From a virus, in the IMG/VR virus record IMGVR_UViG_3300032242_003075, positions 25,883 to 89,882 of that record: a stretch of 64,000 nucleotides of DNA; one strand, 5' to 3'. Numbering within the stretch: the first letter of the stretch is position 1; the number at the start of each line of letters is the position of its first letter. The notes beneath the pieces were generated by a model. That model was not told where the DNA came from. It worked only from the letters and a program-made list of their open reading frames with translations, and did no database searches. This document shows positions 14,602-41,230 of the stretch, in pieces. The position numbers and the translations under genes were made by a program.

Positions 14602-17600
14602 TTAGAACGATGGTGTAAAACCTGTTGATTGAGACGAAAGTTGACCGTTTGCTCTTGTGATTGTGATACGGTTGATGAACTTTTGAATTCCTCTTGGGAA
14701 GTTAACAATTATATCAACCACACCAGCATTATTTTCAAGAACAGTTACTCCGTTATTTGAATCGTCAAATACAATATCGAACGTTGTGATACCGTTAGCA
14801 TCTTGAACTGCAGTTAAGTAATTCTTGATAAGAGTCTTAACTCTTAACCTAGTGGTAGGATCGTTAAACTCAAAAAGATAGTTTAATAAGATTCGTTCAA
14901 CGTCCCTTTCGATTGTAACCAGGGCTTCTCTAACGTGAATGTTGTTAAGGGCTGACTTAACCGTTTGATAACCTGTGTTGTTTGAGAATATCATAACTCC
15001 AAAACCTCTACGCCTAACGATTAAGTTAAAACCTGCAGGTTCCAAGAAATCTCTATCATCATTGGTTAAATCATATTCAACACCAGTAATTTCAGGTTCG
15101 GTGATAATTCCCCTTTTACCTGCAACAATTGAGAAAGTATTTCCATTTGAGTACTTTTTCATGTACGTATTAGCAACATAAGTGGCTGGCGGAATTGACT
15201 TGTTTTTTCCGTTTTCATAAATGATTAAGTTTGGCATGAAGTATCCAGCATAGGTTGAAATCGGAATTCCATTCTTATCTCCGCTAGCGAATCCGAAAGT
15301 AAAGCTTGGATTTGAAAGCAAGTTACCTCCGGTTGAAATGTATTCAGTTGACACCAAGTTAGTATTAATATCAATGAATCCTGGGTCGCTTGACCTTTCG
15401 TACTGGGCAAATGATGGAGAGTTTAGAATGGCAAAGGCTTTTCCATGATCCGCCGCTAGTTGCACTAAGTACTGCTTAGACGCGTGTGATATTTGACCCT
15501 CATACGAATCAATTATGTATCTGAAATCTAATGTTTCGTTATCCGCTACTGTTGCTGCAATGTTCGTATTATCGTACATGTAGCTTAGAATATCGTCCTG
15601 TCTTTGAGACGTTCCGTTAGGGTACATTGCAGTTTCATCAACGATCATAGCTGGAACGTAAAATCCGTGCAAGTTAGTCACGAAATTCTTAATTCCTTTG
15701 TAGCACGTTAGCTTACTGTCAGTAAGATCAATTCCTCTAATGTTTGAATCCGTGTAACCGTCAACCTTGATCGTATATTGTAAAGTTGTTGCAGGTAAAC
15801 TGTCCGGACCAATTGATGGAACTGATACTTTCACAGCAGAAATTGATTTAATCTTTAAGAACCTCTCTCTAATTACCGGATCACCATTAAGGTCAGTCGT
15901 TATTTTAGCTTTAACGTATTGACCGGTTTTAAAGAAGTTATCAATATCGGCTCTGCTGTCTGAGTTATAAGTGAAACCTGGATTAGGTCTTTCCTTTTTA
16001 GCTGGATTACCGTATAGCGTTGGATCCAGCGTAACCACTAATTGGTTTGGCGAGGAATATTTAAAGTTGTAAGGTGAGCTAGTTATGAATCTAGTAGAAT
16101 CAGTTAAATCGAATTCATACTTAAAAAGATTTTCAGTTGCTTGAATGATGTGTAAATAGTGGAATCCACCATCTGTTGTGTAGTAAGCGTCTGCTTGGTT
16201 AGTGAATGTTGCATCGCTATAGACAAAGAATTCAATGTACTTAATTTGACCAGTAGACTGAATATTCACTACTCCATTAGTCGATATGTACTTATTGACT
16301 TGAGCAGAAGAGACTGGATCAATCCAATTAATCTTGTCTCCAGTTTTTACGAAACCTGAGGCCCATGCCGAGTACAACTTACTTCCGTATGTTGCAACAA
16401 TGTACTTATTACCTCCACCGTTAACAATGTAGGTCTCACCATTAGCGTATGTTGAACTATAACTAGTAGAAGTTAGCTTAAAGTAATAATCAGAAGCAAT
16501 GGGCTTTCTGTGACTTAATACGTCAATTAGAGCGACCGCGTTCTGTAGTGAAGTACCATCATCAACTCCATAAGTAGCTAAGTCCATTTCATCAACTCCA
16601 TAACCTACTAGATCAAGTCGTTGTTCTGATACTGGCTCAGTCGATGTACCGCTTGCGAATGTTGCATTAGTTAAGTCAATCATGTCGATCTTTTTATGAT
16701 CTAATGATAAGAAAAGACCACTTTGACTAAATGATCTATTGAATAAAGTATCGATTGATGCAACAGCTCCAGTTAAATCCGTGAAGTCTGGTATAATCGA
16801 TCCGATTGTTCGGTTAACCAAAGTTACTTCTCTCAGAGACGTAAAATTAGTTAATTGACCTAATTTTAAGCCGGTCTCGTCAAAATACTGGCGATATACT
16901 GGATCTTTTGCTAATCTTCTGTAATCTGTCCAATTTCCTTCAACTGCAATGACCTCAATGAAATAGTCGGCCATGTAGTCATCCGGGTGTAAGTATTCCG
17001 GTATTTCAACCTTTTCTCCAAGTAACTTGTAGTAATCCTTAACCGTAATGTCATAACCGTTTGTGTCAGCGATTCTTGCCCATACCGTAACTTGTTTCTT
17101 TGATAAGTTAACTAAACTAATCAATTTATTTGAATCACGAGTTACTGTTCCGGAAGCCGGAAACGTATCTCCAAGTTTAAGATTTTTGTACTTACTTAAT
17201 TGATCAGCATCAGCAAACCATAACTTTTGAGTGTTATAAAAGTGAGAAATGCTATCGTGGTAAGCAGAAGAGGTCCAAGTAGCATTATTTGACGCTGATT
17301 CTGTGTTAAACGTTGTGAAGTATGCAATGTCAGTATCTGTCACCGGCAAGATATTCAGTGCGTATACTGGGCCTTGTCTTAGAGCTACATCAATCGTTCT
17401 GTGAAAGTAGCTTCCGTTCTTTTCAAGCTTAGTATCAATTTCTCCATACACCGCTGATAAGGCCTTAGTATCATTGATGACCACGACTGAGTTAATTGGT
17501 CCTTTTTTGCTAGAGCCAATTACCAACCGACCAGTTGAGTTAGGGAGGCTAAGGTTTATGCTCTCATCTATTTCAACTGTGTAGACACCGCTTGACTTGT

Positions 17601-17628
17601 ATCTATTCAGATTTAATTTTTCTGCCAT
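14602..17628 (-). CDS. 18: Contractile tail sheath protein (T4 gp18-like)
   Basis: This 1008-aa protein forms the contractile outer tail. The N-terminal SSGVYTVEIDESI followed by GSSKKGPIN and a strand-rich domain is typical of sheath proteins. The C-terminal conserved domain is clear: NNIHVREALVTIERDVERIL, FEFNDPTTRLRVKTLIKNYL and DIIVNFPRGIQKFINRI. It is longer than T4 gp18 (659 aa), probably because of surface-exposed insertions in the middle, where there are repeated Ser/Tyr/Thr-rich strands at about residues 340-640. A late-type promoter lies just upstream and a terminator downstream, so it is transcribed alone, away from the tube gene. Confidence 0.93.
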   Translation of the reverse strand: MAEKLNLNRYKSSGVYTVEIDESINLSLPNSTGRLVIGSSKKGPINSVVVINDTKALSAVYGEIDTKLEKNGSYFHRTIDVALRQGPVYALNILPVTDTDIAYFTTFNTESASNNATWTSSAYHDSISHFYNTQKLWFADADQLSKYKNLKLGDTFPASGTVTRDSNKLISLVNLSKKQVTVWARIADTNGYDITVKDYYKLLGEKVEIPEYLHPDDYMADYFIEVIAVEGNWTDYRRLAKDPVYRQYFDETGLKLGQLTNFTSLREVTLVNRTIGSIIPDFTDLTGAVASIDTLFNRSFSQSGLFLSLDHKKIDMIDLTNATFASGTSTEPVSEQRLDLVGYGVDEMDLATYGVDDGTSLQNAVALIDVLSHRKPIASDYYFKLTSTSYSSTYANGETYIVNGGGNKYIVATYGSKLYSAWASGFVKTGDKINWIDPVSSAQVNKYISTNGVVNIQSTGQIKYIEFFVYSDATFTNQADAYYTTDGGFHYLHIIQATENLFKYEFDLTDSTRFITSSPYNFKYSSPNQLVVTLDPTLYGNPAKKERPNPGFTYNSDSRADIDNFFKTGQYVKAKITTDLNGDPVIRERFLKIKSISAVKVSVPSIGPDSLPATTLQYTIKVDGYTDSNIRGIDLTDSKLTCYKGIKNFVTNLHGFYVPAMIVDETAMYPNGTSQRQDDILSYMYDNTNIAATVADNETLDFRYIIDSYEGQISHASKQYLVQLAADHGKAFAILNSPSFAQYERSSDPGFIDINTNLVSTEYISTGGNLLSNPSFTFGFASGDKNGIPISTYAGYFMPNLIIYENGKNKSIPPATYVANTYMKKYSNGNTFSIVAGKRGIITEPEITGVEYDLTNDDRDFLEPAGFNLIVRRRGFGVMIFSNNTGYQTVKSALNNIHVREALVTIERDVERILLNYLFEFNDPTTRLRVKTLIKNYLTAVQDANGITTFDIVFDDSNNGVTVLENNAGVVDIIVNFPRGIQKFINRITITRANGQLSSQSTGFTPSF

Positions 17629-34715: not shown

Positions 34716-36425
34716 TTATAAATTATCGGCTGACCATTCAAATTTCCAATTACCGCATTCAAATGTTCGGTATAGACCCCTTTCGTGCATTATCTGAAGT
34801 TCAGTTTTAGTTGGGTCCTCGCCCTGTAGAACAAGCTTGTGTTTCATGAAGTTATTCCTGGGCATCCTGATTCCGTTGACCACCCACGAATACGAATTTG
34901 ATCTACCCAATAGCTTAAATCCAAGTTTATGATACACGGTACAGGTTGGATCCGGTGAAATGTCTACGTCGCAAAAGCTTATCACCCGGGCAGGTCCTAT
35001 TTCTCGTACGAATCTTGAGAATAACTTTGAGGCTCCTCCTATTACTGACGTGTTCAACTTTGTGCAAAGTCGTTCAAGCTCCCAAATTTCGGACTTTCTG
35101 ACGAATGTCATGACCTCAACTAATTCTGACTCGTAGAACAGGCCGTATGCAATCGTACATCTCTTTCCTCCCTTTAAATGATTTTCCTCGCAAAAATCCT
35201 TTGCCTTTTTCGAATCCATTCTATCGATGGTGCATTTTCTTGCGAATATTCTCGATTTGGACATCCCCACAAAGTTATTAATCATGCTCTCAACTATCGG
35301 TCTTTTGGTTGACCAGTCATCTTCCCAGACATGATGTAGTTTTATTCCATGTGAATGAGCTAGCATCGTTTTATTAATGTGGTATTGAGAAGGTTTTTCC
35401 ATTTCACTATGCCAGTAAGTTCCGTTAAATTCAATCGCAATCATTTCTTTCGGTAAAAAAATGTCCAATTCTGTTCCCTTTAAAACGTATTTTCTATTTA
35501 ATAGAACGTTAGGGCCGTATACTGATATGACGTAATCAGCTAAACTTTTTTCAGCCTTTGAGAATCTTCTGTTTGATATGTCTGACTTATTACAGAAAGG
35601 GCAAGGATCAGCGCCTCTTCTTAGCTTAACGTTAACGCATGAATTTGCAAGCACGAACGAGTTACTGCATTTATTGCACAGTAATGAATAGTACTGAGTT
35701 GTAGTATCGTGATCAACTAATTCAATCTGGTAGGACTTTAACTTGGCTGAGGCAGCGATTGCTAGCTTGATCTTATTTGATTTTCCAACCTTACTTGAAA
35801 TTTCTGGGCTTTTAGCAGCATTTTCAAAACCGTACCTACTTAAATTAGTATCTTTGGTTTTTTTAATACCAAGCATGTTTAACGTTCCCTGAGAATCAAT
35901 CGTTGACTGCTGTTGTTTTTTTAATATATCATAATTCTGTAAAGCATGTTTAGCTCCATACCTCTCAACCATGGTCTTTTCCATAGATTCTCTCGGTTTT
36001 CCGGACCAATTGTGCTCAGAACCGTATCGTTCCATCATGGTTTTTCGGTAATTATCCCTAGTTGATTTCAGCTTGGTTGGATGATCAACTCCGTGCTTAA
36101 GCATGGTGCTTTCCCTTAAAGTTAGTAGGCGATTACTATCAATGCATGATTTATCCCCACATGTCTCTAAGTAGCCTTTAGAATATGTATTGAATTTTCT
36201 AAGTTTACCGCATTCGCATCTAACTCCATTTTCTGAGTTGACGATGGACCATAATATCTGCTGTGGATTGTCAGGTACTTGAAACTTATTGATTAAAAAA
36301 TCTTTAAACTCTTTGTCCTTTCTTAATATGGTCAATTCGCTTTGAATTCTAACGTTTGCCATTTTTTTCTCTAATAGTTTCTCCCTGAGTGAATCTAGTT
36401 TTTCTTGATTAGTTAGAGGTTCCAT
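34716..36425 (-). CDS. Homing endonuclease, Vsr/DUF559-like core (569 aa)
   Basis: The N-terminal part carries a Cys-rich element (GVRCECGKLRKF, GDKSCIDSN) and tandem recognition motifs (LKHGVDHPTKLKS, ERYGSEHNWSGK, ERYGAKHALQN, SRYGFENAAKSPEI). A second zinc-like element is LLCNKCSNSF with DPCPFCNKS. The nuclease core is KGTELDIFLPKEMIAIEFNG followed by YWHSE. The C-terminal ~200 residues (KAKDFCEENHLKGGKRC, IGGASKLFSRFVREIG, VYHKLGFKLLG) form an extra domain seen in some phage endonucleases. It lies next to the major capsid gene with its own late promoter and follows that gene's terminator, so it is a self-contained mobile gene. Confidence 0.82.
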   Translation of the reverse strand: MEPLTNQEKLDSLREKLLEKKMANVRIQSELTILRKDKEFKDFLINKFQVPDNPQQILWSIVNSENGVRCECGKLRKFNTYSKGYLETCGDKSCIDSNRLLTLRESTMLKHGVDHPTKLKSTRDNYRKTMMERYGSEHNWSGKPRESMEKTMVERYGAKHALQNYDILKKQQQSTIDSQGTLNMLGIKKTKDTNLSRYGFENAAKSPEISSKVGKSNKIKLAIAASAKLKSYQIELVDHDTTTQYYSLLCNKCSNSFVLANSCVNVKLRRGADPCPFCNKSDISNRRFSKAEKSLADYVISVYGPNVLLNRKYVLKGTELDIFLPKEMIAIEFNGTYWHSEMEKPSQYHINKTMLAHSHGIKLHHVWEDDWSTKRPIVESMINNFVGMSKSRIFARKCTIDRMDSKKAKDFCEENHLKGGKRCTIAYGLFYESELVEVMTFVRKSEIWELERLCTKLNTSVIGGASKLFSRFVREIGPARVISFCDVDISPDPTCTVYHKLGFKLLGRSNSYSWVVNGIRMPRNNFMKHKLVLQGEDPTKTELQIMHERGLYRTFECGNWKFEWSADNL

Positions 36426-36541: not shown

Positions 36542-38263
36542 TTAGTAAGATGATGCTGGTCTAGTTGATCCAGTTAATACACCTAAACCGTTTACAGTTA
36601 AAGTGATGTATTGAGTTTCTGGGTGCCATCCTGCTTCTGTGATTGCATAACGTGATTTCATACCAATTTTTGGAGAGAATGTACCTTCTGCAATTGTTTG
36701 AAGAGATTCAGCCATAATATACGGCATGAATTTAACACCTGGTTCTTCATCTGCACCTTTACGGCCGATGTGGATTCTGTTATCTCCGAATTTTAAGTTT
36801 GGATCCACATACACAGTTAAACCGTGTACTTTACCTGCTGGATATAATTGTCCTGCAGTTGATGGAAGATCATTATTAAACGGAGAGAATGTGTAACCTG
36901 CTACGTCAGCAAGAGCTGAAGCAACACGACCGTTAGTTACGATGTAAGTACCGGCTCCGAAACGACCTCTGTGATAAATCAAGTTAGCCATTTCAAGAAT
37001 TTTAGTTACAACTCGACGTTGTAGAGTTGAGATGTTCTCAAAACCAGTTGAACCTACTGTAAGGTCTAAGTTAGTAATGTCAGAACCTTCAACTCCTGCG
37101 ATTTCAGTGTTATGAGCTGTTCCTAATTGGAATACTCTGTCTACTAATTTCTTGTTGATCGATTGAGCAAGTTCGTTAACCGCTACGTTTTCTAACATTG
37201 AGATTACGTCGAAGTTCCAAACTCTGTTAAGATCTTGGATTTGCTCAACTGTTGCAGAGATAGCAACTTGGTCTCCTTTTGCTTCGATGAACTTGGTGAA
37301 CATACGAAGACCCATTTGACGGAATTTTGAAGTTTCTGCAACTGCTCTGGTCATTCCATCCATTTGACTTCCGTTAGCTCCTAAGTAAGGACCGTTAAAG
37401 TCAGTAGTTGAGTAATCAGCATCTGATACTGAAGTGAAACCTGAAATGTGGTTTTCTAAAGCAGATACTAATTCAACTTTGTTATCAGCTGTACGGAAAG
37501 TTACTACCGAAGTACCTGAAACGTCAGTGTTATTAGCTGGTTGAATATCAACGTCTGCTGCGAAGTAATCAGCAAGAGTACCGCTATCATGAGATAAGAT
37601 AACCTTGAAGATTGGAGTTCCGTCAACACGTGATTTACCAACGTATTGCATAACTAAGTCAGTGTTGGCTTCGTTTACACCGTAGTTGTTACCTTCGGTG
37701 AACGGTAGAGTAGCTGAGCTAAACTTAGCACCATTTGCGACACCGTTTACTGTAGAACCAGCAGCGTTTTCTAACAAACCTGTGATCTTGATTAAATACG
37801 GTTCGTATTGTTTGTCAATGTTACCACCTTGGTACACGTAATCCAAGTAAGGTAAGAAACCTACTGGAGAATCCATAGGAACTACACCAACTAGGTCGAA
37901 ACCAATAGTTTTAGCAGCCACTTGGATTGCTACAGGTAAAAGGCTTGGGAATTTATCACCAGAACCTGATACTGAAGCACCGTATCCGTTTTTAATACCT
38001 GCTGTGAACGGAGTCATTGAGCTAGTAGGAGAAGTGATTGCTCCCATTGCGCTAATAGAACCCGGTTGTTGTAAGAATAAACCTGGAGCTACACCAGTGT
38101 TTGATTCATTGATTGCACCTGCGTTATCGAAGATTGCATGGTTGTGAGCTAAGTCAACAATCCAAGGGCGAGCTGTTACGTTTGCGCCGTATCCTTCTAA
38201 AACTGGGGTCCAAGTTTCTCTGATTGAAACATCGTTCAATCTTTTGAAAATTTTAGTTGCCAT
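36542..38263 (-). CDS. 23: Major capsid protein (T4 gp23-like)
   Basis: The 573-aa product is read as the major head subunit from its place after protease-scaffold and from gp23-like features: LRMFTKFIEAKGDQVAISAT, QRRVVTKILEMANLIYHRGR, and a C-terminal LKFGDNRIHIGRKGADEEPG with MPYIMAESLQTIAEGTFSP. Residues 47-56 read NAGAINESNT; a cut after Glu53 (I-N-E before Ser) would remove a 53-residue propeptide, comparable with the 65 residues removed from T4 gp23. Synonymous codon use looks more uniform than in neighbours, as expected for a highly expressed gene. A perfect late octamer lies 143 bases upstream, inside the scaffold gene. Confidence 0.92.
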   Translation of the reverse strand: MATKIFKRLNDVSIRETWTPVLEGYGANVTARPWIVDLAHNHAIFDNAGAINESNTGVAPGLFLQQPGSISAMGAITSPTSSMTPFTAGIKNGYGASVSGSGDKFPSLLPVAIQVAAKTIGFDLVGVVPMDSPVGFLPYLDYVYQGGNIDKQYEPYLIKITGLLENAAGSTVNGVANGAKFSSATLPFTEGNNYGVNEANTDLVMQYVGKSRVDGTPIFKVILSHDSGTLADYFAADVDIQPANNTDVSGTSVVTFRTADNKVELVSALENHISGFTSVSDADYSTTDFNGPYLGANGSQMDGMTRAVAETSKFRQMGLRMFTKFIEAKGDQVAISATVEQIQDLNRVWNFDVISMLENVAVNELAQSINKKLVDRVFQLGTAHNTEIAGVEGSDITNLDLTVGSTGFENISTLQRRVVTKILEMANLIYHRGRFGAGTYIVTNGRVASALADVAGYTFSPFNNDLPSTAGQLYPAGKVHGLTVYVDPNLKFGDNRIHIGRKGADEEPGVKFMPYIMAESLQTIAEGTFSPKIGMKSRYAITEAGWHPETQYITLTVNGLGVLTGSTRPASSY

Positions 38264-38283: not shown

Positions 38284-39564
38284 TTAGTTTTGTGCTCTTC
38301 TTTTGAGCATTTCAAGGTAGTTATTAGAATATCCTCTAACTGCCTCATTTACTTTTTCTAACGAAACGTAACCTTCTTTACCTTGGTCTTCGTTGAGTAT
38401 GTGATTATTTATATTTGCTGAAGTTGCAAGTCTTTCACGAATTCCTCTAAGATCTCTAGCATCCCAGAAAGCCTTAACTTGATATGGTGTGTTTAGCACT
38501 AAGTTTGAAGCTTGAGCACCTATCCAATTTCTTTCTGCAGCCGTCATGCTTTCGAATAGTTCTTTGTAGTTAGTTGGCATGAACTTAATGTAGGCTGGAG
38601 TGTTTTCCACCTGTTTGTTTAACACCGCTTCCATTAAGTTAACAACCTCATCTTCGGTGAAGTAGATGGCGCCCTTTAACGTTTCAACGATTGCAGTTTT
38701 AGTAGCTTGATCTAAGTTATAGAAAGCTTGTTTTCTATTTTCGTTTAGTAACTTTAAGAACGGATACTTATTCTCTAGGATCGATTTAGCTGAATTCGAT
38801 TTAATATGAGTTAGGATGTTATCAACCGCGCTGGTGATATCGTCAACCGATGAACTTTCATCAACGTTAACTCCAAGACCCTCGTTTAATTTTTTAACCT
38901 CTCCAAGAAGGGTACGAGTTTTAGCTGATGCGCTAGGTAAGATCTTATCGTTTAACGATTCAGCTATGTATTCTGAGTATTTGATACCCCTTTCTAAGCT
39001 TTCTCCCAAGTAATTTGAGTACTTAATTGATGCTTCAAGATTCTCGGCTAAATAATTAGAGTACTTGATTCCGCTTTCCGCGCTTTCGGCTACGTATTCT
39101 GTGTACTGAATTCCCTTGTCCAACGATTCAGCTAAGTAATTAGCATAGGCTACAGTTTTTTCAACTCCTTCAGCGACGTATTCCGTGTAGTTGATGTTTT
39201 GGTTAAGTTTTTCTCCAATGTAGTCCGAGTAGGCAATGTTCTTTGCAACTTTTTCTCCAAGGTAGTCAGCGTAATCAATTGTATTGTTGACTTTCTCAGC
39301 AACGTGCTCAGTGTAACCAATTCCTTTATTTAGCATCGTTGACAAATAGTTAGAGTATTCAACCACTTGTTGAAGTTCTCCGGCTAAGTAGTTAACGTAT
39401 TCGGTTAATTTGGAAACCAACGGAGATTCTCCCTCAGCTGATTCATTGATCTTGATTAGATCCTTATTGTTCTTTTGTATGCTTTCATGAAGAGTCGAAA
39501 ATTTCTTTTTAACCAGTTCAGAATACCGGTTCATCTCTTCTTTTGTTACAAACTCATTAGCCAT
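38284..39564 (-). CDS. 22: Scaffold (prohead core) protein from internal start
   Basis: This nested product would start at ATG 39564 (MANEFVTKEEMNRY) in frame with the protease-scaffold frame, giving 426 aa. Support: the leader ACACAACAA before the ATG looks like other starts in this phage, a late-type octamer lies about 38 bases upstream, and the preceding codons are low-complexity. T4 makes its scaffold gp22 from its own gene right after protease gene 21. Whether the full-length fusion, the short form or both are made cannot be decided from sequence. Confidence 0.55.
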   Translation of the reverse strand: MANEFVTKEEMNRYSELVKKKFSTLHESIQKNNKDLIKINESAEGESPLVSKLTEYVNYLAGELQQVVEYSNYLSTMLNKGIGYTEHVAEKVNNTIDYADYLGEKVAKNIAYSDYIGEKLNQNINYTEYVAEGVEKTVAYANYLAESLDKGIQYTEYVAESAESGIKYSNYLAENLEASIKYSNYLGESLERGIKYSEYIAESLNDKILPSASAKTRTLLGEVKKLNEGLGVNVDESSSVDDITSAVDNILTHIKSNSAKSILENKYPFLKLLNENRKQAFYNLDQATKTAIVETLKGAIYFTEDEVVNLMEAVLNKQVENTPAYIKFMPTNYKELFESMTAAERNWIGAQASNLVLNTPYQVKAFWDARDLRGIRERLATSANINNHILNEDQGKEGYVSLEKVNEAVRGYSNNYLEMLKRRAQN

Positions 39565-40266
39565 TTGTTGTGTATTATTTTGTTTAGGTGTTGTTTCAGA
39601 GTTATTTATTCTGTAGATCTTCACAGAATCCTCGAAATTAAAATTCTCAGATATGTCAACTAATTGATTCGTAATAGCTGTTGTTTTTAATGAATCTAAT
39701 GATTCGAATAAGATGGAGAAGTTTTCTTGTAGGTTTTCGGACACCTGATTTAGCGTCGCTTGTTTAAAACCAGGTTCGTACACTAGGTCATACGTAAAGA
39801 TTCTCTGTAGTTTAACCTTACCGCTTTCAGACACGTTACCTGCGGCTCTTGAAGAGATTGAGATGACACATCCAGCCTCAACCAGAGTTTTAGCGATCCT
39901 TCCGCATGGCGTGTCTAGCAGCCTAACCTTAATTTTAACGCTATTTGACGGTTCATCATAAATTAGCGTTTCAATTACGTGAGATACGTTAGCTAGGGAG
40001 ACTTCGAATTTCTGAGGATGATCAAGTTCACCGAATAGTCTTCGCTGACTGATTTTTTCATTTAAGTATTGTAGATGGGGTAAGTACTCCTGTTTCTCAT
40101 ACACCCTATTGTTTTCGTTCATGATTCCGAAAACGGCTGCAGTACCTTCAAGGATAATATCATTATTTTCCTTGGTCACAGTTACCGCCTCATTAATGTG
40201 TTCAATTATAAAAACTGAATCCTTAGGTAGGGCAGGTGCATTTAGACTTACTATGGGTTTGTTCAA
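38284..40266 (-). CDS. Prohead protease fused to scaffold protein (T4 gp21-gp22 equivalent)
   Basis: The 660-aa frame has two parts. Residues 1-230 are a prohead serine protease: LEGTAAVFGIMNENNRVYE, RRLFGELDHPQKFEVS with the catalytic His region, and CVISISSRAAGNV with the catalytic Ser. Residues 235-660 resemble a scaffold: a helical domain, eleven 14-residue repeats (Y-x-x-Y-[LVI]-[AG]-E) and a C-terminal helical part. The internal Met235 (39564) follows a low-complexity linker (ETTPKQNNTQQ), an A-rich leader and a late-type promoter, so scaffold is probably also made separately. Autocleavage-like sites are INE26 in the propeptide and INE275 in the scaffold. Confidence 0.85.
   Translation of the reverse strand: MNKPIVSLNAPALPKDSVFIIEHINEAVTVTKENNDIILEGTAAVFGIMNENNRVYEKQEYLPHLQYLNEKISQRRLFGELDHPQKFEVSLANVSHVIETLIYDEPSNSVKIKVRLLDTPCGRIAKTLVEAGCVISISSRAAGNVSESGKVKLQRIFTYDLVYEPGFKQATLNQVSENLQENFSILFESLDSLKTTAITNQLVDISENFNFEDSVKIYRINNSETTPKQNNTQQMANEFVTKEEMNRYSELVKKKFSTLHESIQKNNKDLIKINESAEGESPLVSKLTEYVNYLAGELQQVVEYSNYLSTMLNKGIGYTEHVAEKVNNTIDYADYLGEKVAKNIAYSDYIGEKLNQNINYTEYVAEGVEKTVAYANYLAESLDKGIQYTEYVAESAESGIKYSNYLAENLEASIKYSNYLGESLERGIKYSEYIAESLNDKILPSASAKTRTLLGEVKKLNEGLGVNVDESSSVDDITSAVDNILTHIKSNSAKSILENKYPFLKLLNENRKQAFYNLDQATKTAIVETLKGAIYFTEDEVVNLMEAVLNKQVENTPAYIKFMPTNYKELFESMTAAERNWIGAQASNLVLNTPYQVKAFWDARDLRGIRERLATSANINNHILNEDQGKEGYVSLEKVNEAVRGYSNNYLEMLKRRAQN
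38406..38413 (-). promoter_or_regulatory. Late promoter octamer TATAAATA upstream of major capsid gene
   Basis: A perfect octamer followed by ATCA on the minus strand, within the end of the scaffold coding region and 143 bases before the capsid ATG. The same TATAAATAATCA occurs in front of the protease gene (40287). Confidence 0.65.
38938..39399 (-). repeat. Eleven tandem 42-bp coding repeats in scaffold
   Basis: Residues 290-443 form eleven units of 14 residues, such as YANYLAESLDKGIQ and YSNYLAENLEASIK. Most carry [LVI]-[AG]-E, matching the prohead-protease consensus. The 14-residue period equals two heptads, so an extended coiled coil or amphipathic helix is expected. Confidence 0.9.
39602..39611 (-). 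promoter_or_regulatory. Internal late-type promoter upstream of the scaffold start
   Basis: The minus strand reads GAATAAATAA about 38 bases upstream of the internal ATG at 39564. The spacing matches other late promoters in the window. Confidence 0.5.
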
Positions 40267-40330: not shown

Positions 40331-41230
40331 TTATTTATTAACGCTAATCAATAAGTCTCTGAGGCTTGTAAGTTCTTCCTCAGTAAGTTGTGCCAGATCC
40401 GGCATTTTGACGTTTATTTTGAAAATTAAGCCTCCACGATTTCCGTATTCAGAAACCAGGCCCATTTCTGGGATTCTAATTCTAAGATCTGTTAATTTAT
40501 TTGAACCTAACGATTTGATCCTAAATTTTTTACCCAGGTTGCTCTCTAGGATGATTTCCTTTCCGAATAATACATCATAAAGAGTTAATTCGGTCTCCTG
40601 AACAAGATCCGTGTGTTCTATTGAGAGTCCCAGCATGTCGATGTTAACGTTGACTATTAAATCTCCGCTAACTCGGCTAGTTGACTCGAGGCCAAATTGT
40701 AGACGCTGTTTAATTTCTTTTTTTGATCCGCCTCCCCTAACCTTCAATACGATCACATGCTGACCGTTTTTAAATGATATTGGATAAGTTCCAGTTAAGA
40801 GATTTATTGATAAGGATACAGATTTCCATTCATGTAGCGATTCTGATCCAACTGAGTTCATAATTACGTACTCAAGGTCAAAGGATTTACCTTCCATTAG
40901 TTCCTTAATCGTTGCCCATTTATCAACGGTCACGTTTAGGATCCTGGTGTCGAATTTATCGTACTTGGAAGAAAAATCAAAATCGGTAAATGACCCAAAG
41001 AAATCGCTATACTTTGAACTATTCGTTCGACTAGCGTCGTATGCCTTTCGTTTAGCTTCGTTACCTAAGGTTTCATAGGCTTCCGACACGATTTTAAACT
41101 TCTCCTCCGATTCCTTGCTATTATCATTCTTATCAGGGTGATGTTCGGCTGCAAGCTTTCGATACGCCTTGCGTATCTCATCCTGAGTAGCAGCATCAGT
41201 TATCCCTAAGTCAGCATAATAATTTTTCAA
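40331..41230 (-). CDS. dnaJ: DnaJ/CbpA-type co-chaperone
   Basis: The 299-aa product has an N-terminal J domain (YYADLGITDAATQDEIRKAY, then AAEHHPDKND with the essential His-Pro-Asp). Next is a short Ser/Phe/Asp-rich linker in place of the Gly/Phe region, then DnaJ C-terminal substrate-binding domains (SGDLIVNVNIDMLGLSIEHT and NRGGLIFKINVKMP). It lacks the Cys-rich zinc domain, so it is CbpA-like. J proteins stimulate DnaK ATPase. No DnaK is present in the window, so it probably recruits the host DnaK. Lying between baseplate and protease genes, it may serve virion assembly. Confidence 0.92.
   Translation of the reverse strand: MKNYYADLGITDAATQDEIRKAYRKLAAEHHPDKNDNSKESEEKFKIVSEAYETLGNEAKRKAYDASRTNSSKYSDFFGSFTDFDFSSKYDKFDTRILNVTVDKWATIKELMEGKSFDLEYVIMNSVGSESLHEWKSVSLSINLLTGTYPISFKNGQHVIVLKVRGGGSKKEIKQRLQFGLESTSRVSGDLIVNVNIDMLGLSIEHTDLVQETELTLYDVLFGKEIILESNLGKKFRIKSLGSNKLTDLRIRIPEMGLVSEYGNRGGLIFKINVKMPDLAQLTEEELTSLRDLLISVNK

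Follow-up and report, generated by a model that had tools for sequence, protein, structure and literature searches.

Does one gene of this phage encode both a prohead protease and the scaffold on which that protease acts, and how might the two be made in different amounts? The question is raised by a single reading frame in the window, the 64,000-nucleotide stretch of DNA analyzed here, which comes from an 89.9-kb IMG/VR virus record. A first-pass annotation of the window had placed protease and scaffold together in this frame, and the frame is indeed unbroken over 660 amino acids; on the minus strand, which the annotation had left unstated, it begins with TTG at 40266 and stops at 38284 (Table 1). 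That protease and scaffold are fused in one gene is very likely. Our reading of the locus as a whole, that a gp21-type protease–scaffold fusion gives two nested products that would co-assemble and be cut at about one site per repeat unit, we hold with a probability of about 0.77.

Table 1. Coordinates of the fusion gene, its parts, and adjacent elements in the window.
Feature	Position	Strand	Details
Fused prohead protease–scaffold ORF	38284..40266	(-)	660 aa, TTG start; fusion in 59/59 non-redundant homologs
Late-type promoter TATAAATAA	40286..40294	(-)	19–20 nt upstream of TTG start
S77 (T4 gp21-type) protease domain	39739..40224	(-)	residues ~15–176; Pfam/PHROG, AF2
Linker, residues 177–234	39565..39738	(-)	three invariant predicted self-cleavage sites
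Internal late promoter AATAAATAA	39602..39610	(-)	read in frame as (R)-I-N-N
Predicted separate scaffold, 426 aa, from internal ATG (Met235)	38284..39564	(-)	Met invariant in 59/59
Eleven 14-residue units, residues 290–443	38938..39399	(-)	nine with [LIV]-x-E; long helices predicted
Conserved C-terminal helical domain, residues ~497–610	38437..38778	(-)	common to Lak, pT24, and MA9V-2 fusions
Late-type promoter TATAAATAA in scaffold 3' end	38405..38413	(-)	ahead of capsid gene; some homologs only
Major capsid protein (gp23 family)	36542..38263	(-)	directly downstream of fusion; Pfam Gp23 2.9e-42

A protease joined to a scaffold-like region

The N-terminal part had been described as protease-like, and several lines of evidence bear this out. 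It matches Pfam Peptidase_S77 (PF03420; 2e-10, 40.9 bits against a cut-off of 27) and PHROG 207, "head maturation protease" (1.5e-37). The catalytic residues H83 (40018–40020), S138 (39853–39855), and D160 (39787–39789), all on the minus strand, align with H85, S140, and D168 of T4 and are invariant across 12 diverse proteases. The AF2 model of the protease, which is of moderate confidence, has T4 gp21 as its best PDB match (5jbl, E 1.2e-7). Judged by homology and predicted fold, the N-terminal half is a T4 gp21-type (S77) prohead protease with its catalytic residues intact. In T4, gp21 cuts after L/I-x-E (PMC9026906).

The fusion is widespread. At least 560 IMG/VR stretches encode relatives, among them ~270-kb contigs, Mahaphage-type genomes of 462–735 kb, and one Bacteroidetes-binned contig, and all of the 59 non-redundant homologs that we extracted keep it as one frame. 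More distant fusions, which have no Tyr repeats, occur in the Prevotella Lak phages, Tenacibaculum phage pT24, and Chryseobacterium phage MA9V-2, where HMM matches to the C-terminal domain reach 1.2e-5, 5.6e-10, and 1.8e-6, respectively. On these alignments, the constant features across the fusions are the fusion itself and the C-terminal domain, whereas the middle changes. The core of this domain is modeled by AF2 at pLDDT ~80–85. A fold search with it gave no PDB match; against BFVD, the proteins matching above chance were one from an uncultured phage, labeled "T4 prohead protease" (44% identity), and an uncharacterized one from Virus NIOZ-UU157. We infer that this helical domain is the capsid-binding part. 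Separate, short proteases are found in Sphingomonas phage PAU, XacN1, and T4.

We call the C-terminal half a scaffold because of its position, its fusion to the protease, its density of cleavage sites, and its helical character; similarity to T4 gp22 is undetectable. Scaffold profiles gave no match to gp22 above noise, nor did the C-terminal domain match it, and a gp22-type scaffold (phrog_237) was found neither in six relatives of ~217–271 kb, each of which has one S77 gene, nor in the giant relatives searched. We rejected the idea that the scaffold half is a gp22 homolog, given that it has no sequence support and that phrog_237 was not found in the relatives searched. The lack of detectable similarity to gp22 also counts against our overall reading.

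The capsid gene directly follows the fusion in those homologs whose contig reaches that far. Other genes nearby were noted in passing. Directly upstream of the fusion lies a gene for a DnaJ-like protein (40331–41230, minus strand; DnaJ domain 2.7e-23), a homolog of which is upstream of the fusion in 55 related loci; this protein may serve the phage as a co-chaperone in assembling its head. A homing-endonuclease-like gene (34716–36425, minus strand; phrog_3339, 1.3e-99) directly follows the capsid gene. Farther away, the tail sheath protein (14602–17628, minus strand) has 1008 amino acids, roughly double the length (496) of the phrog_23 sheath profile, and its sheath match falls in the C-terminal part. 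A portal-family search of the phage's own record returned no match, and the controls likewise returned none.

Predicted cleavage sites and fourteen-residue repeats

Predicted sites of the T4 type lie in the linker, in the capsid propeptide, and in the scaffold. Three in the linker, VSE177/N, LFE188/S, and ISE207/N (slashes mark the predicted cut), are invariant in 23 of 23 non-redundant homologs, and E177 aligns with E187 of T4 gp21, which lies in that protein's own C-terminal site ITE/S. An alignment of capsid protein homologs has conserved sites of the types VLE23/G and INE53/S in the N-terminal propeptide. The conserved [LIV]-x-E motifs of linker and propeptide are consistent with the predicted cleavage after [LI]-x-E. 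In the scaffold, such motifs are in excess: residues 235–660 contain 24, compared with 10.3 ± 2.7 when that sequence is shuffled (2.3-fold), and their density of 5.6 per 100 residues is above that of all 28 other large ORFs of the window that were tested (0.5–3.6).

Within the scaffold, residues 290–443 form eleven contiguous units of 14 residues. [LIV]-x-E occupies unit positions 5–7 in nine of the eleven; eight units read exactly Y-x-x-Y-[LVI]-[AG]-E, and one further unit has His as the second Tyr. Units 1 and 2 (YVNYLAG and YSNYLST) have no Glu at the end of the motif. Thus, the proposal that nearly all units carry the protease consensus holds, but the accompanying statement that they are near-identical does not apply to this phage, where mean pairwise identity between units is only 40% for amino acids and 53% for DNA. 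Nearly identical units (YSEYLAENLDKNI[SA]) do occur in the Mahaphages and the L144–L152 clade. The number of units is 11 at ~270 kb, ~12–13 at 635–735 kb, and ~14 in L144–L152; a role for repeat number as a ruler of genome size was rejected, as unit counts are not proportional to genome size. DUF1549 and DUF16 matched the repeat region weakly, below their cut-offs, and we took both as composition matches.

The repeats could be structural only, forming a helical rod in which Glu7 serves charge or packing and few sites (in the linker and the C-terminal part) are cut, with the fusion and the nested scaffold both real. The units are predicted to be helical. This is also the outcome of the structure prediction that had been suggested as a check on the repeats, although AF2 confidence there is low in the full-length model (pLDDT ~30–45). 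Moreover, within the jumbo clade, conservation of Tyr4 (0.89) at least matches that of Glu7 (0.80), in figures obtained with a unit search pattern of which Tyr/Phe/His formed part. The evolution of the Glu residues bears on the same point. After loss of Glu7, a Glu was gained at position 11, creating a new [LIV]-x-E, on 9 of 136 branches versus 6 of 954 (p = 1.5e-5), and gain at position 8, which creates no site, was likewise enriched (p = 0.003); these counts are parsimony-based and not fully independent. The position-8 gains fit simple charge compensation, and charge balance may explain part of the replacement pattern. However, replacement is more marked at position 11, suggesting selection for one site per unit. 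Further, the pT24 and MA9V-2 fusions are site-dense without repeats, with 33 [LIV]-x-E in the former and many [IL]-N-E-S in the latter, so the shared feature is site density, not the repeat. Taking both sides together, we consider a solely structural role the less likely reading.

The fused protein of MA9V-2 (L008, 4947–8567) has 1207 amino acids and many [IL]-N-E-[SA] motifs, which suggests, from motif composition, that its lineage has a stricter consensus for these sites.

If the units are instead substrates, as we favor, then cutting at every repeat, which would dice the scaffold into 14-mers, is plausible from the spacing of the sites. Two observations count against this part of our reading: a folded helix, as predicted for the repeats, is a poor protease substrate, and two of the eleven units in this phage have no canonical site.

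A probable internal start and embedded promoter

The first-pass annotation had further pointed to a late promoter and an in-frame ATG at 39564 between the two halves, and to a separate scaffold made alongside the fusion. Promoter and ATG are both present (AATAAATAA at 39602–39610, minus strand). Met235, which the ATG encodes, is invariant in 59 of 59 homologs, and no other Met in the protein is; it comes after a variable linker, and its A-rich leader resembles those of other starts in the window. In the jumbo clade, 45 of 46 homologs have an octamer, ATAAATAA, that precedes this ATG by 37–67 nucleotides. The window holds 18 such octamers, of which 17 are ahead of a start on the same strand; the 18th is the one in the linker.

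The coding of this element is unusually constrained. Only one of the three frames through TATAAATAA is free of stops, the one giving I-N-N, and it is the frame used in the ORF. The third positions of Ile220 and Asn221 underwent no changes on the jumbo-clade tree, compared with 6–16 changes for other conserved Ile and Asn codons, the lone exception being Asn625. Within the same proteins, the codons ATAAAT are used at the octamer in 23 of 23 cases versus 20 of 124 other I-N pairs.

A second block, close to the 3' end, was seen in the same comparison. Across the jumbo clade, the block AACGAAAGCCAA.GTA.AGAAGG (38371–38394, minus strand; residues 625–632) has frozen synonymous sites, with Asn625 encoded by AAC in 45 of 45 members and no third-position change, and it closely follows the candidate promoter for the capsid gene. 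A search for an RNA element at this end of the ORF gave no Rfam match, and the covariation and hairpin evidence was weak.

The two starts also differ in kind. With the first potential start codon after the promoter taken as the full-length start, an assignment that leaves a few cases ambiguous (e.g. L049 and L069, with TTG then ATG), the fusion begins with TTG in 32 homologs, GTG in 11, and ATG in 6, three of these last from other clades; in the jumbo clade, all but three scored members have TTG or GTG, 16–21 nucleotides downstream of a late-type motif. By comparison, ATG starts 51 of the 62 genes in the window, and the internal scaffold start is always ATG. Because the fusion start in the jumbo clade is almost always TTG or GTG and the internal start always ATG, scaffold should exceed protease; the weak start would keep the protease scarce, as it is in T4 and herpesvirus. 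Together, the invariant Met235, the frozen octamer, its uniqueness among the octamers of the window, and the weak fusion starts support the proposal of fusion plus separate product, and a nested scaffold beginning at Met235 is likely on this evidence.

The internal promoter is not universal, since the Mahaphages and the L144–L152 clade keep Met235 and do not have the octamer. In those phages, making the scaffold would require internal initiation or a different promoter, a point that weighs against our overall reading. It is also conceivable that the gene yields the full-length protein alone, which self-cleavage then parts, the internal ATG and the octamer being incidental. The three linker sites alone could part the halves, and the pT24 and MA9V-2 fusions have no obvious internal start at the junction, but such an account leaves the invariant Met, the frozen synonymous sites, and the weak upstream start without a role, and we regard it as improbable. 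Less probable still is that the octamer has another DNA or RNA function (a distant capsid-gene promoter or an RNA processing site), with scaffold made by internal initiation on a long mRNA: the second frozen block from residue 625 near the 3' end and the retention of Met235 without octamer in Mahaphages would fit, but the motif, its 37–67-nucleotide spacing to the ATG, and its likeness to the motif of other genes fit a promoter.

A proposed nested protease–scaffold system and its relatives

From the two-product reading, we infer an expression ratio, co-assembly, cleavage, and peptide exit as follows. One gene would give two nested, 3'-co-terminal products: a scarce full-length protease–scaffold, begun at the weak TTG/GTG codon that follows the upstream late promoter, and an abundant scaffold-only protein, from Met235 behind the late promoter in the linker. 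Both would co-assemble into the prohead core through the repeat rod and the C-terminal domain, so that the protease would be carried in as a minority scaffold subunit. Once the shell is complete, the protease would cut [LIV]-x-E sites, releasing itself at E177, E188, and E207, removing the propeptide of the capsid protein, and cutting the scaffold about once per 14-residue unit, and the short peptides would exit, making room for DNA. A more specific version, to which we give even odds, is a self-shredding scaffold: a helical 14-residue array would offer the fused protease one site per unit, selection would keep the site even where it shifts, and the weak start and embedded promoter would set the ratio, convergently with herpesvirus UL26/UL26.5.

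T4 genes 21 and 22 provide one comparison. The protease family and catalytic residues are the same, as is the gene order of protease, scaffold, and capsid; the L/I-x-E specificity of gp21 is, for our phage, predicted from its sites. T4 gp22 is likewise site-dense (20 [LIV]-x-E in 269 residues), and a T4 late promoter, TATAAATA, occupies the matching place, where gene 21 ends and gene 22 follows. Thus, the scaffold here shares with gp22 its location between protease and capsid genes, the late promoter in front, and its richness in [LI]-x-E. In contrast, T4 has two separate genes, an unrelated scaffold sequence, and no 14-residue array. The T4 ratio is about 100 gp21 to 576 gp22 (PMC5694885).

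Herpesvirus UL26/UL26.5 likewise pairs one protease–scaffold gene with an in-frame, co-terminal scaffold-only gene, and self-cleavage of the UL26 product frees the protease, as the three invariant linker sites predict here. The herpes enzyme differs in cutting at two defined sites (R and M) with no repeated array, and the scaffold sequences are unrelated. In fold, the two proteases are distantly related, with weak Foldseek matches. In herpesvirus, the scaffold-only form is the majority, and VP21 is about 10% of scaffold (PMC12474303).

The comparison originally drawn, with phage lambda C/Nu3, is apt in that the scaffold is nested; UL26/UL26.5 is equally close. Our locus belongs to this nested-gene kind by its one-frame fusion in 59 of 59 homologs and, on sequence conservation, by its predicted internal start. 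To our knowledge, the proteases of lambda C/Nu3 and P2 O are of families unrelated to that of this phage, and these systems have no repeated cleavage sites. In both, protease and scaffold occupy one gene (PMC8508860).

The closest known fusions are those of pT24 (annotated "prohead core scaffold") and Chryseobacterium phages MA9V-1 and MA9V-2 ("prohead core protein serine protease"), in which an S77 protease is likewise joined to a long, site-rich region and the same C-terminal domain. They differ in having no 14-residue Tyr repeats and no evident internal start, and each has been annotated by one half only. Further, the 519 positions of PHROG 207 and the pT24 fusion align from end to end; the fused form is therefore already in databases, known only as "head maturation protease." In our literature search, which covered few subscription papers, no S77-family protease–scaffold fusion or repeats of this kind were reported. 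As far as we found, such a fusion in S77 phages is unreported, the kind being known from lambda C/Nu3 and UL26/UL26.5.

These results point to the scaffold in abundant, widespread giant phages of Bacteroidota-type bacteria, including the largest phage of the collection searched (735 kb), where it has been hidden because annotation sees the protease half alone. They would place a herpes-like nested protease–scaffold system within a protease family that is structurally related to the herpes enzyme. Scaffold exit would be testable in such a system, since its predicted products, peptides of 14 residues, can be counted.
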